Source: Candidatus Aquicultor sp. (GTDB lineage: Bacteria > Actinomycetota > Aquicultoria > Aquicultorales > Aquicultoraceae). From it: DNA of 64,000 nt. The stretch is from assembly GCA_036504445.1 (NCBI GenBank), contig DASXVE010000028.1:1-64000 (forward strand), read 5' to 3'. The notes under the pieces were generated by a model that ran no database searches, was not told where the DNA came from, and saw only the letters and a list, made by a program, of their open reading frames with translations. Both the position numbers and the translations under genes were made by a program. Positions 3,243 through 55,034 of the stretch are shown here, piece by piece; position 1 is the stretch's first letter, and each line of letters opens with the position of its first letter.

Positions 3243-4799
3243 TTACATATACTGCCTATCAAGCGCTCGATACTGAACCGATTCGGCGATATGTGTGATT
3301 CCAATATCGCGTTCTTCTGCCAGATCAGCAATTGTTCTAGCTACCTTGAGAACCCGCTCAAACGCGCGTCCGCTCAACCCAAGTTTATCGATCGATATTT
3401 CTATGAACGCCCTTGCCTCGTTTGTGAGGTCGCAAAATAACCCTACTTCCTTTGCCTTCATTTGTGCGTTCGCTCGTATTATGGGCCGCGGCGAAGCGCT
3501 TTTTGCCCTTCCTGGAAGCTTCGAGAACCGATCTCTCTGAATCGCCCGGGCGGCATTCACACGCTCTTTAATGAGCGTAGACGACTCCCCTTTCTTGGAG
3601 TGCAAAAGCTCTTCTTTGGATAATCGCGGGACATCGACATGGATATCGATGCGGTCGAGCAATGGGCCCGATAGCCTACCGCGATAGAGCTGAATCTGTC
3701 GCGGGGTGCACACGCACTGCTTCACCTTATCACCAAGATGAGCGCAAGGGCATGGGTTCATACTTCCCACCAACGTAAAGCATGCGGGATATGTTAAAGA
3801 AGCTGACGCCCTGGAAATCGTCACATGACCTTCCTCCAGCGGTTGACGCAATACCTGGAGCACGCCTTTAGCAAATTCCGGGAACTCGTCCAGAAAGAGA
3901 ACGCCGTTGTGTGCAAGGGATACCTCGCCGGGCCTGGGGTAACTGCCTCCACCGATAAGACCTGCGTGACTAATCGTATGGTGTGGTTCGCGGAACGGTC
4001 GTGTGGTTATCAGAGATTCGCCGCTCTTAAGCATATCTGCGACCGAGTATATTTTTGTCACCTCAATAGCCTCGTCGATTGTCAAGCGCGGCAATATCGA
4101 AGGCAAACGCGAAGCGAGCATCGTTTTGCCCGAACCCGGCGGGCCGATTAAAAGCACGTTATGGGCACCTGCGGCCGCTACCTCGAGCGCCCGCTTAACA
4201 TGCTCTTGACCCTTTACATCTGCAAAATCAAGTTCGAATTGCTCGTTTTCGTTCAGTGATATATCTTTTGATTGCGGCTGAATCTCCAGCATGCCTTTCA
4301 GAAACAACACGGTCTCGCTCAAATCCTTAACCGGCACGATGTCGATGCCATCAACGACCGAAGCCTCACCTGCATTTGGACGAGGTAGTACCACACCCTT
4401 TTTGCCGAGCCGTTTAGCGGCGATCGCTATGCAGAGCGCACCCGTAACCCTGCGGATCTCGCCGGTGAGCGAGAGCTCGCCGGCAAACAGATAGTTTTGA
4501 AGATTATCGTGCGGGATCTGCTCGGTCGCGGCAAGAATACCGAGCGCGATAGGAAGATCGAAGGCAGGCCCTTCTTTACGAATATCTGCCGGCGCCATGT
4601 TGACAACGATGCGCTTTAGAGGAAATTCGAATTCTGAGTTGGATATGCCGCTTCGCACCCGTTCTTTCGATTCCTGTACGGCCGTATCGGCTAAACCGAC
4701 AATATTGACTGACGGAAGCCCGAGAAAAACATCGACCTCCACCTCAACCGGTACTGCGTCCATACCAATGACTGCAGCCGAGAGCACCTTTGCGAGCAT
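3243..4799 (-). CDS. comM: YifB/ComM-family Mg-chelatase-like AAA+ ATPase
   Basis: 518 aa. ComM is a hexameric AAA+ helicase that promotes branch migration during transformation-linked recombination. The N-terminal ChlI-like domain (about 1-165) begins MLAKVLSAAVIGMDA. The AAA+ core has Walker A GPPGSGKT (219-226) and Walker B GVLFLDEF near residue 300. A zinc-binding CPCAHLGD..CVC segment follows and then the C-terminal Mg_chelatase_C helical region. It lies upstream of dprA and probably shares its transcript. Confidence 0.95.
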   Translation of the reverse strand: MLAKVLSAAVIGMDAVPVEVEVDVFLGLPSVNIVGLADTAVQESKERVRSGISNSEFEFPLKRIVVNMAPADIRKEGPAFDLPIALGILAATEQIPHDNLQNYLFAGELSLTGEIRRVTGALCIAIAAKRLGKKGVVLPRPNAGEASVVDGIDIVPVKDLSETVLFLKGMLEIQPQSKDISLNENEQFELDFADVKGQEHVKRALEVAAAGAHNVLLIGPPGSGKTMLASRLPSILPRLTIDEAIEVTKIYSVADMLKSGESLITTRPFREPHHTISHAGLIGGGSYPRPGEVSLAHNGVLFLDEFPEFAKGVLQVLRQPLEEGHVTISRASASLTYPACFTLVGSMNPCPCAHLGDKVKQCVCTPRQIQLYRGRLSGPLLDRIDIHVDVPRLSKEELLHSKKGESSTLIKERVNAARAIQRDRFSKLPGRAKSASPRPIIRANAQMKAKEVGLFCDLTNEARAFIEISIDKLGLSGRAFERVLKVARTIADLAEERDIGITHIAESVQYRALDRQYM

Positions 4800-36544: not shown

Positions 36545-36877
36545 TTAAATGCAGCCGGTCGGCTTTGGTAGACCTGCAATTTTGCACGTCTGGATGGCCG
36601 GCCCGCCGGGAAATAACCTGTATATGTATATATTATTGCCTTTGTCTTCACCCAATCGCTTAGCAACTTGCTTTACGAGAACTTTTATCATGGGCGGTAC
36701 TTGAAACTCTTCAAAATACGACCGGGCGACACCGATTATTTCCCAATGCGCCTCGCTCATCTCTATGCCTTCTCGCCGTGCAATAAACTCTGCGACCTCA
36801 CGGTTCCAATCTTCCCGGTGAACGAGAAAGCCGTCGTCATCGGTTTCGTAGTGTTTGCCGTTAAATTCGAAACCCAT
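36545..36877 (-). CDS. dsrC: DsrC/TusE-family sulfur carrier
   Basis: 110 aa. DsrC carries sulfur as a persulfide or trisulfide between enzymes of sulfur metabolism. Helical fold with DGFLVHREDWNREVAEFIA and the flexible C-terminal arm ending TCKIAGLPKPTGCI. Both arm cysteines are present with ten residues between them, the spacing of true DsrC. TusE keeps only the penultimate one as catalytic. No dsrAB genes are in the window. The divergent neighbour is the SQR-like flavoprotein, so both may handle reduced sulfur. RBS GGGAGGCATGAT. Confidence 0.93.
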   Translation of the reverse strand: MGFEFNGKHYETDDDGFLVHREDWNREVAEFIARREGIEMSEAHWEIIGVARSYFEEFQVPPMIKVLVKQVAKRLGEDKGNNIYIYRLFPGGPAIQTCKIAGLPKPTGCI

Positions 36878-37269
36878 CTATCATGCCTCCCGCGAACGTA
36901 TATATGGCTGCACATTACCATTACATCTTATATGACAGCCCTAATTAATCCACTATTAACACCATATTACACTATTTTATACTATTCTTACGAACGCCCG
37001 CCCGTTATAGTGTAGGCAACAAGCAGCGGCGCTAAATATTGTATGAAATTAATAATATTTTGCGAAAACAGCATTTGTTATATTCAGTTTTGCTTATAAT
37101 TAATGATGCTAAAGCCTTTACTCAGCTATCGCTTTTTATATTTGTTTTACTTGCGCGCGGTAGAGGCTGCGTCAAACCAATGATGCCGATATACTGTTTT
37201 AACAATGCTAATTTTAATCGCGAATAATACCGATATCATATAGATACACCACTGCGCGGAGGATTATTT
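36878..37269. promoter_or_regulatory. Divergent promoter region of dsrC and the SQR-like gene
   Basis: 392 bp, clearly more AT-rich than its surroundings, with no credible gene. It should hold the promoters of both genes. I can point to TATAAT-like strings such as CTTATAATTAATG (about 37092-37104), but not to an operator. The GGAGG at 37259-37263 is the SQR RBS. Confidence 0.5.
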
Positions 37270-38499
37270 ATGGCAAAGAACATTCTTATACTGGGCGGCG
37301 GTAACGGCGGCACTATGATCGCCAATAAACTAAGGAAACACCTTGCCCGTGATGTGTGGAATATCACGGTTATCGACAAGGATAACCGTCACATCTACCA
37401 GCCGGGGCTTTTGCTTGTGCCGTTCGGCCTCGAGAACCCCCATAAAATCGTCAAGCAGCGAAGTAAATACATTGCACCGGGCATTACCTTCGTGCTGGAT
37501 ATTGTTACTCGCATAGACCTGGAGAAACGTCTGGTCAAAACCGTCGGTATGCGCGAATTCTCATACGATTTCCTGGTGATAAGCACCGGTTGTATGCCGG
37601 ACGCAAGCGAAGACGCCGGCCTATCCGATGCGCTCGGAAGAAACGCCTTCACGTTTTACGATTATGACGGGTCGTTAGCCCTGCAAACAGCGCTTAAGCA
37701 GTTTAACGGCGGCAAACTCGTAGTCGCTATAGCTTCACTTCCGATAAAGTGCCCGGTCGCGCCATTGGAATTTGCGCTTCTTGCAGATTGGTACTTCACA
37801 AAACGAGGGATTCGCAATAAAGTCGATATCCGGTTTGTAACGCCCGCTATGGGAGCTTTTACCAAAGCAAGAACATCAGCGGTCCTAGGGGAGATCACAG
37901 CCGAGAAAAACATCGCTATCACGGCGAATTGGAACCTGGGTACAGTGAACGCCGGCGAGCGGCGGATCGAAAATATGCCGGGTACCGAACGTATCGACTA
38001 CGATCTGCTCGTCGCGATACCAACTAATGTCGGTGCCAAAGTAGCGACGGATTCCGATATAGATGATGGAATGGGCTATGTCCCCACCGATCCGCACACC
38101 CTACAGGTAAAAGGTTATAGTCAAGTGTATACGCTCGGTGACGCATCGAATACCCCGGCTTCAAAGGCCGGTTCAAGCGTCCACTATCAAACCGATACCG
38201 TTCTTCATAATATATTATGTGAGATTCACGGCCGCTCTCCCGAGCCACTCTATGACGGACATGCCACCTGATTTATAGTTACCGGCGCCGGGCGCGCCGT
38301 CCTCATAGACTACAGCTACGAGGTCGAACCGCAATTCGGCTCGTATCCCTTCTCGTGGGGCCCGCTCTCTCTCCTCGAAGATACACGGCTGAATTGGCAT
38401 GCCAAGAAATCGTTCGGTAGGGTATACTGGCGCATGCTTCTCCCCGGTAAGAATCTGGGCGCTGCGGCCTATTCTTCCAAAGGAAAGAAAGAACAATAA
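37270..38499 (+). CDS. SQR-like FAD oxidoreductase with in-frame UGA (candidate selenoprotein)
   Basis: 409 aa if TGA at 38269-38271 is read through, 333 aa if not. N-terminal FAD-binding LILGGGNGGTMIAN, GLLLVPFG, Cys108 in STGCMPD, conserved Cys161 in LPIKCPVAPLEF and FAD-binding YTLGDASNTPASKAGSSVHY. Related flavoproteins continue with GHxNCFIxTGxGKAxLIDxxYxxEPxxGxFP and end with an amphipathic RWIYWxxLLPGK. Here the frame reads YDGHAT-U-FIVTGAGRAVLID, then YEVEPQFGSYPF, and ends SFGRVYWRMLLPGK. So the UGA replaces the conserved C-terminal cysteine, which in SQRs is a redox-active member of the Cys pair that holds the polysulfur chain. Expected at the cytoplasmic face of the membrane, passing electrons from sulfide or persulfide to quinone. 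Confidence 0.85.
38269..38299 (+). other. Candidate selenocysteine codon with SECIS-like hairpin
   Basis: TGA 38269-38271. A perfect six-pair GC stem, CGGCGC (38283-38288) / GCGCCG (38294-38299), closes loop CGGGC (38289-38293). The loop begins 18 nt after the UGA and has G as its second base. Both agree with the bacterial SECIS consensus. The stem is inside the coding frame, as in bacterial selenoprotein mRNAs. Folded by hand. Confidence 0.65.
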
Positions 38500-53702: not shown

Positions 53703-55034
53703 ATGGATAAACGAGCACTGGTCTTAACCGGCCACGGTTTAGATATACGGGTGCAATACGGTGGGCTTAAAATTAGAGATGGATTCCCCCACAAACAAGA
53801 GATTCGAGATACCTTCATCAATCGCGGCCTTAACGATATTGAGCATATCGTGATCTTAGGGCAAAGCGGCAGCATCACCTTTGATGCTCTCAAATGGATT
53901 GCCGATCAAGATATCGCGGTTACCTTTGTTGATTATAACGGCGAGCTTCTAACAGACTTTATTCCCAAAGAGCATACCTCGGGCGTAACAAAGAGAAGAC
54001 AGGCATTAGCAACGCAAGAGCTGAACCTAAAGATTGCAACGTGGCTGCTGCAGGAAAAGTTTAAAGCGCAAGCAGAAACGCTCAAACATATTTCACAGCG
54101 ATACCAGAAAACCACATGGCTAGACACTGCAAGGGTAACGACAATTCAGGCTGCGGTTGCCTTCATTGCGGAGAAAGTAAGAGAGCTTAAGACCGCTGAT
54201 GATGTTAATAATCAGCGAGCCCAAGAAGCGATAACCGCTGCTTATTATTGGGAGTGTTTCTCAGGCATTCCACTAATGTGCGTACAAACAAAGAAAATCC
54301 CGCAAAATTGGCTAAGTCTTAACAAACGTCATTCACCAAAGACGCATTCACCTCGCAAAGCAATAGACCCGTTTAACGCTGCGCTTAACTATCTTTATAG
54401 TGTGCTTGAGGTAATGATCAAACATGCTGCAATAGCGAAGGGCTTAGATGTCGATTTTGGAGTTATGCATGCGGACCGATCTAATAGAACCTCACTTGTC
54501 TTTGACCTCATGGAGCCCATCCGCCCGAAAGTCGATGTGCTGCTCTTAGATTGGTTCATGCAGCAAACCTTTGAGCCAAAGGATTTCTTTGAAACCCGCG
54601 AAGGCGTATGCCGCATAAGCCAAGACATTTCAAAAGAGATCATCCCGCTTCTTAACGATCTTAACCCGAACATTACAAAGGTTATAAAAGAGTTTGCAGG
54701 GTTCTTCAAAGATAAGCACACGATTGCAATATCTGTTAGTGATCAGAGCTTTCGAGCTGGTAAGGGAGAGAACAAAACGGTTTGCTTGTGTTGCAATGAA
54801 GAGTTTATCCCCAAGAAGCCCGGACAGCTCTATTGCTCAGAGCAGCATAAGAATAAACACCATCGGCAAATGTTGCGGGCAGAGAGAAAAGAGAACGGAC
54901 AATGTATTCAATGTGGCAAGCACATGGATGGTCCTCGCATTGGGGCTAACGGTAGGAAGGTTTATTCTTGTGAAGAGTGCTCTGGTTATTATAGTGAAAA
55001 GTTTAAGAAATGGAAGCAGCTCCAGCAGTCATGA
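53703..55034 (+). CDS. cas1: Cas1 casposase with C-terminal zinc fingers
   Basis: 443 aa. N-terminal beta domain (1-80; HIVILGQSGSITFDALKWIA), then the helical catalytic domain. Active site: Glu175 (RAQEAITAAYYW), His256 (GVMHADRSNRTSLVF), Asp268 and Glu271 (FDLMEPIRPKVD). The spacing His+12 and +15 equals that of authentic Cas1. NAALNYLYSVLEV is also typical. After residue 360 come two zinc-finger-like units: CLCCNEEFIPKK...YCSEQHKNKHH and CIQCGKHMDG...YSCEECSGYY. These replace the HTH tail of archaeal casposases and likely recognise the inverted repeats. No cas2 or cas4 nearby. RBS AAAGGCGG. Confidence 0.95.
   Translation: MDKRALVLTGHGLDIRVQYGGLKIRDGFPHKQEIRDTFINRGLNDIEHIVILGQSGSITFDALKWIADQDIAVTFVDYNGELLTDFIPKEHTSGVTKRRQALATQELNLKIATWLLQEKFKAQAETLKHISQRYQKTTWLDTARVTTIQAAVAFIAEKVRELKTADDVNNQRAQEAITAAYYWECFSGIPLMCVQTKKIPQNWLSLNKRHSPKTHSPRKAIDPFNAALNYLYSVLEVMIKHAAIAKGLDVDFGVMHADRSNRTSLVFDLMEPIRPKVDVLLLDWFMQQTFEPKDFFETREGVCRISQDISKEIIPLLNDLNPNITKVIKEFAGFFKDKHTIAISVSDQSFRAGKGENKTVCLCCNEEFIPKKPGQLYCSEQHKNKHHRQMLRAERKENGQCIQCGKHMDGPRIGANGRKVYSCEECSGYYSEKFKKWKQLQQS

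Follow-up and report, generated by a model that had tools for sequence, protein, structure and literature searches.

A predicted selenocysteine at the C-terminal catalytic position of a Candidatus Aquicultor sulfide:quinone reductase and its probable repeated gain in this enzyme family

The locus and the encoded flavoprotein

The window, i.e., the whole analysed stretch of 64,000 nucleotides, contains on its plus strand a gene of the sulfide:quinone reductase (SQR) type with an in-frame UGA and, divergent from it, a gene for a sulfur-relay protein. The features of this locus are as follows.

36545..36877, minus strand: TusE/DsrC-type sulfur-relay protein, divergent neighbour of the SQR gene (Pfam DsrC, 1e-41; TIGR03342, 148 bits versus a cut-off of 53.5)
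37258..37262, plus strand: GGAGG, judged by sequence a probable ribosome-binding site, 7 nt upstream of the ATG at 37270
37270..38499, plus strand: predicted selenoprotein SQR gene with the UGA read as selenocysteine (Sec), 410 codons including the TAA stop
37750..37752, plus strand: codon of Cys161 (KCPVAP), equivalent to Cys201 of human SQOR and invariant in a 28-sequence alignment
38269..38271, plus strand: UGA codon 334, predicted selenocysteine, equivalent to Cys379 of human SQOR; TGA in 9 same-family genomes
38272..38496, plus strand: 75 C-terminal codons 3' of the UGA, the normal C-terminus of the family with the final helix included
38283..38299, plus strand: bacterial SECIS-like hairpin, stem 38283-38288 / 38294-38299, loop 38289-38293 (CGGGC)

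In the frame that starts from the ATG at 37270 the TGA is codon 334 and is followed by 75 codons up to the TAA at 38497-38499, and translation of 37270-38499 with the TGA taken as Sec gives a single open protein of 409 residues, which carries U at position 334 in the motif DGHAT-U-FIVTG. This bears out the initial annotation, where the TGA at 38269 was described as lying in frame inside an SQR gene and the 75 further codons were taken for the normal C-terminus of the family. Among the Sec orthologues the protein after the TGA is 53–60% identical, and for this reason the stretch 3' of the TGA is considered to be translated.

According to Pfam the product is a Pyr_redox_2 flavoprotein, and it possesses a GGGNGG FAD motif near the N-terminus. 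Among solved structures, those of human SQOR are nearest to it in sequence (8dhk, E 6e-47, 163 bits, the alignment reaching window residue 394); in this alignment Cys161 falls on the Cys of PVKCAGAP (Cys201) and the UGA on the Cys of YDGYTSC (Cys379). Both K160-C161-P162 and DGH..C334 are invariant in 28 aligned sequences when UGA is counted as C. The AlphaFold model, built with 27 homologues, has a mean pLDDT of 92.6, and its best match among all PDB entries is again human SQOR (TM 0.88), the SQR features present in the window protein being the two-Rossmann flavoprotein fold, the FAD motif, and the redox pair C161/U334. The human enzyme, a type II SQR (PDB 6OI5, 6OIB, 8DHK), is thus similar in fold, over a full-length alignment, and in the positions of its Cys201/Cys379 pair, which correspond to Cys161/Sec334, but it is ~27% identical to the window protein and has Cys at residue 379.

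The initial annotation also made the C-terminal Cys position the partner of Cys161 in the KCPxAPxE motif, which agrees well with the alignment, as the two positions are those of the human catalytic pair Cys379/Cys201. The term "third redox cysteine", which was applied there to the UGA site, comes from the numbering of the three-Cys type I SQRs; the UGA lies on the column of catalytic Cys379, and in human SQOR, the closest solved structure, the active site is the two-Cys pair Cys201/Cys379.

The neighbouring TusE/DsrC-family protein (36545-36877) ends in GLPKPTGCI and is encoded in a genome without dsrA and aprA. It is a possible sulfane-sulfur acceptor of the SQR; no TusE/DsrC gene was seen beside the SQR orthologues. 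A role of the SQR within dissimilatory sulfate reduction was rejected for the window's genome, from which aprA and dsrA are absent, while relatives do have aprBA adjoining. In four of these relatives (G005, G006, G007, and G009) aprB-aprA-like genes are divergent from the SQR orthologue and in three of the four they are followed by an HdrA-like gene, the neighbours being identified by profile in G006 only and by eye, from near-identical starts, in the others; in G006 a tusD gene lies in the same stretch. Around the orthologues no neighbourhood shared with the window was found except the SQR itself, apart from one match to an ABC ATPase (L078) at 30% identity. Elsewhere in the window (53703-55034) a 443-residue open reading frame resembles, by eye, a Cas1-type CRISPR-associated protein.

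The function of the protein is assigned by homology, its fold is common to NDH-2 and flavocytochrome c, and its genome has neither aprA nor dsrA; these points would also suit a selenoprotein that uses the same Cys/Sec pair but works as a flavoprotein disulfide reductase of another type, such as one that reduces persulfides, CoA-disulfide, or quinones. Such an assignment is unlikely, however, since human SQOR is the best match (163 versus 68 bits for flavocytochrome c; TM 0.88 versus ~0.72 for NDH-2), the SQR cysteine pair is conserved, the score on the CoA-disulfide reductase profile TIGR03385 is 19 versus a cut-off of 579 bits, and the orthologues of the four above-mentioned relatives stand divergent beside aprBA-like genes, in G006 with TusD as well. 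The known FAD-dependent CoA-disulfide reductase selenoprotein (TIGR03385, motif UGxP; PMC13188914) likewise belongs to the flavin disulfide-reductase superfamily but represents another subfamily with another Sec motif.

Conservation of the UGA, selenocysteine machinery, and the hairpin

Counting the window's own, 9 genomes of this taxonomic family have the TGA at the identical SQR column (7 complete genes and 2 contig-end fragments), the identity of these orthologues being ~60–65%. In full-length homologues elsewhere the column is occupied by TGC or TGT. The initial annotation had predicted Cys at this position, and the alignment confirmed it for all full-length Cys homologues with the lone exception of L045/L099, which is 25% identical and lacks both cysteines.

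If the UGA were a true stop, the locus would encode a truncated 333-residue flavoprotein or a pseudogene, or else the codon would be a sequencing error in place of TGC or TGT. Standard annotation would indeed end the gene at this codon, UGA is otherwise used as a normal stop, and the hairpin of the window alone is unremarkable. Nevertheless this explanation is very improbable: 9 separately assembled genomes have TGA at the identical column, the frame beyond it retains 53–60% identity at the protein level, truncation would remove a catalytic residue together with the C-terminal region, and the genome has complete Sec machinery. The retention of the TGA in independent genomes argues in particular against a sequencing error.

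The machinery, for which the 2.57 Mb, 100% complete genome of the window was searched, includes tRNA-Sec with anticodon TCA (G000:C25:100324-100415, 76.6 bits, over the Rfam cut-off) and selA, selB, and selD, each above its curated cut-off; every component looked for in connection with the earlier proposal is thus present, and selD-selA-selB-selC form one cluster within ~5 kb on G000:C25. The selD gene (L064, minus strand, G000:C25:104126-105046) has itself an in-frame TGA inside SKSG-x-AAK, and therefore at least one other selenoprotein is predicted in the same genome.

SelB was over the cut-off in 16 of the 18 sampled genomes with a Sec-type SQR (the window's and 15 of 17 others). It was not found over the cut-off in two Sec-type genomes, G010 with a completeness of 77% and G007 with one of 97%, where the missing gene may represent a gap of the metagenome-assembled genome. 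In G007 (L018, L073, L100) the TGA of the SQR is kept while the other SQR, L100, has apparently reverted to Cys, and because of this reversion of the paralogue a loss of the Sec machinery is also possible there. The genome that encodes the Chlorobium-like Cys sister gave no SelB over the cut-off.

The six-pair hairpin reported by the initial annotation at 12 nt 3' of the UGA, with G at loop position 2, was found at this place and has a 5-nt loop, CGGGC. It folds at -11.3 kcal/mol, which is ordinary for this GC-rich stretch, is no more stable than expected by chance (z -0.31 versus dinucleotide shuffles), and is equalled in stability by 20% of synonymous recodings. Because the shuffle and recoding tests of the single sequence were not significant, the window hairpin alone was set aside as independent proof of a SECIS element. 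When 6 distinct orthologues are compared, pairing is seen in 94% of the stem cells, the loop GG is invariant, and shifting the stem register drops pairing to 36–50%. Two stem pairs are changed on both sides (G-C to A-U and A-U to C-G), this covariation resting on the 6 sequences and its level being matched by 23 of 500 shuffles. The nearest Cys member, the sister protein L048, has no comparable hairpin, and the Rfam search of the hairpin region returned no relevant family.

Insertion of an amino acid other than Sec at the UGA (Trp or Cys, via a suppressor or near-cognate tRNA) would leave the frame just as open, and selenium incorporation is itself a prediction. This possibility is even more remote than that of a true stop, since the homologues have Cys in the UGA column, the genome encodes tRNA-Sec(UCA) over the Rfam cut-off (the search for UGA-decoding tRNAs covering the tRNA-Sec hits) together with selA, selB, and selD, and the Sec members keep a SECIS-like hairpin that the closest Cys member lacks. 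The earlier claim that Sec replaces the C-terminal catalytic Cys is supported by the Cys/UGA column, the Sec machinery, and the conserved TGA. Due to the alignment of the catalytic pair, the Sec machinery, the conserved TGA, and the conserved hairpin, the best reading of the gene is, with high confidence, that of a predicted selenoprotein SQR.

Relation to family NF049943 and distribution of selenocysteine in the SQR tree

The initial annotation regarded an SQR selenoprotein as not yet known, and here it was mistaken. The NCBIfam model NF049943, named "type III sulfide quinone reductase, selenoprotein subtype" and characterized by the motif HxxU, is listed in a 2026 review that cites deep-Sep (PMC13188914), and in the literature searched the model is named in this review only. 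The deep-Sep study of 2025 described an NAD(P)/FAD-dependent oxidoreductase from two species of Desulfosediminicola as a new selenoprotein, together with homologues that have Cys, further TGA-bearing homologues elsewhere, and structures resembling SECIS elements (PMC12013277). With the UGA read through, the window protein scores 577.1 bits on NF049943.1 (SQR_III_seleno) versus the cut-off of 525 and covers profile positions 1-406 of 406, while the protein ending at the UGA reaches only 471 bits, under the cut-off. Its HATU corresponds to HxxU, the Sec column is the same, and a SECIS-like structure lies directly 3'. The window SQR is a further member of the selenoprotein family predicted in 2025, and its kind is not new; the earlier reading was right but not the first, because the model, the review, and deep-Sep already cover this family.

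There are differences as well. The deep-Sep organisms are Desulfosediminicola, while the window clade appears to represent an independent gain. The deep-Sep proteins would belong to the clade sampled here from the Nitratidesulfovibrio phylum, which gives the top NF049943 scores; the hairpin of that clade has the loop GGTC and lies ~7 nt farther from the UGA than the window's, and Cys members split the clade from that of the window (AU p 1.8e-34). Many Cys SQRs (including L111-L126) also score above the 525-bit cut-off, and therefore NF049943 alone cannot tell Sec from Cys, and a model designated as "selenoprotein subtype" could mislabel Cys SQRs. The term "type III" is the NCBI label (SqrC), the present tree being built without an SqrC reference and the best solved relative being the human type II enzyme.

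The tree comprises 99 distinct proteins, for which 296 genomes were sampled from the phylum the window belongs to and 395 from the Nitratidesulfovibrio phylum, with direct fetches in addition, and Sec occurs in it in three places. The first group is the actinobacterial clade of the window, with seven rows and a support of 99; a Cys protein from a Chlorobium metagenome-assembled genome is its sister. The second, from the Nitratidesulfovibrio phylum sampling, is the clade around L146-L169 with the hairpin CGAGAAGG-GGTC-CCTTCTCG. The third is a second SQR paralogue (L066-L070) present in five relatives of the window's genome (G003, G004, G008, G009, and G010), with UGA at the Cys column (GHIIU/GHVIU) and the hairpin ACAAGG...CCTTGT or close variants; two of its genes are placed as follows.

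3642-4778: paralogue gene L066
3222-4358: paralogue gene L067

This paralogue has the UGA in the same column as the window SQR but is ~34% identical to it and carries another hairpin. It scores ~355 bits on NF049943, under the 525 cut-off, and is probably, judging by its sequence, an unannotated selenoprotein subtype.

Forcing the first and second groups together cost 171 log-likelihood units (AU p 1.8e-34), and forcing together the first and third cost 376 (AU p 1e-40), in tests performed on quick trees with trait-defined groups and some long branches. One origin for all Sec SQRs was rejected by these tests, and the three unrelated hairpins at different positions agree with separate Sec gains. 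Parsimony required five changes on the tree. Cys members nested in the Sec clades (L143, L145, and L147 in the second group, L100 in the third) look like Sec-to-Cys reversions, and L145 still has a SECIS-like hairpin. In the plasmid collection the homologues were all distant (below 60% identity). At one and the same catalytic position of SQR, Sec probably arose by convergence no fewer than three times, the distant paralogue included, and was lost no fewer than two times.

Proposed mechanism and significance

The target of HS- in the human enzyme SQOR is the Cys379-Cys201 trisulfide; Cys379 bears the sulfane sulfur until an acceptor takes it off and, once free, completes the cycle, while the charge-transfer complex and the adduct with flavin are made by Cys201 (PMC11039317). 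In the window SQR, SelB would bring Sec-tRNA(UCA) to the UGA at 38269, helped by the hairpin just 3', and Sec334 would take the place of Cys379 in an otherwise human-SQOR-like enzyme. By analogy with the human protein (PMC11039317), HS- would attack the oxidised Cys161/Sec334 bridge, residue 334 would carry the sulfane sulfur and hand it to the acceptor, and the flavin adduct would form on the Cys161 side, with electrons passing via FAD to quinone. Both the actual insertion of Sec and the oxidation of sulfide by this protein are predictions of the present analysis. Near neutral pH a selenol is more nucleophilic than a thiol and a better leaving group. At sulfur release and at re-formation of the bridge Sec334 would thus act as the stronger nucleophile and leave more readily, and a higher reactivity or kinetic advantage may result from it.

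Standard annotation shortens Sec-SQR genes by ~75 codons and thereby drops a catalytic residue, and the paralogue of the third group (L066-L070) would escape the NCBI model as it stands. What is added here, and is moderately novel, is the repeated and, with reasonable confidence, independent use of one SQR catalytic position for selenium. Sulfide oxidation by this enzyme depends on the passage of one sulfur from a catalytic Cys to an acceptor, and with close Sec/Cys enzyme pairs, recent reversions included, it can be tested directly why selenium is spent at this position by some anaerobes. If the repeated gains are true, SQR residue 334 would be a recurrent Cys-to-Sec hot spot, and the family would provide a natural set to measure what selenium buys in sulfide oxidation.
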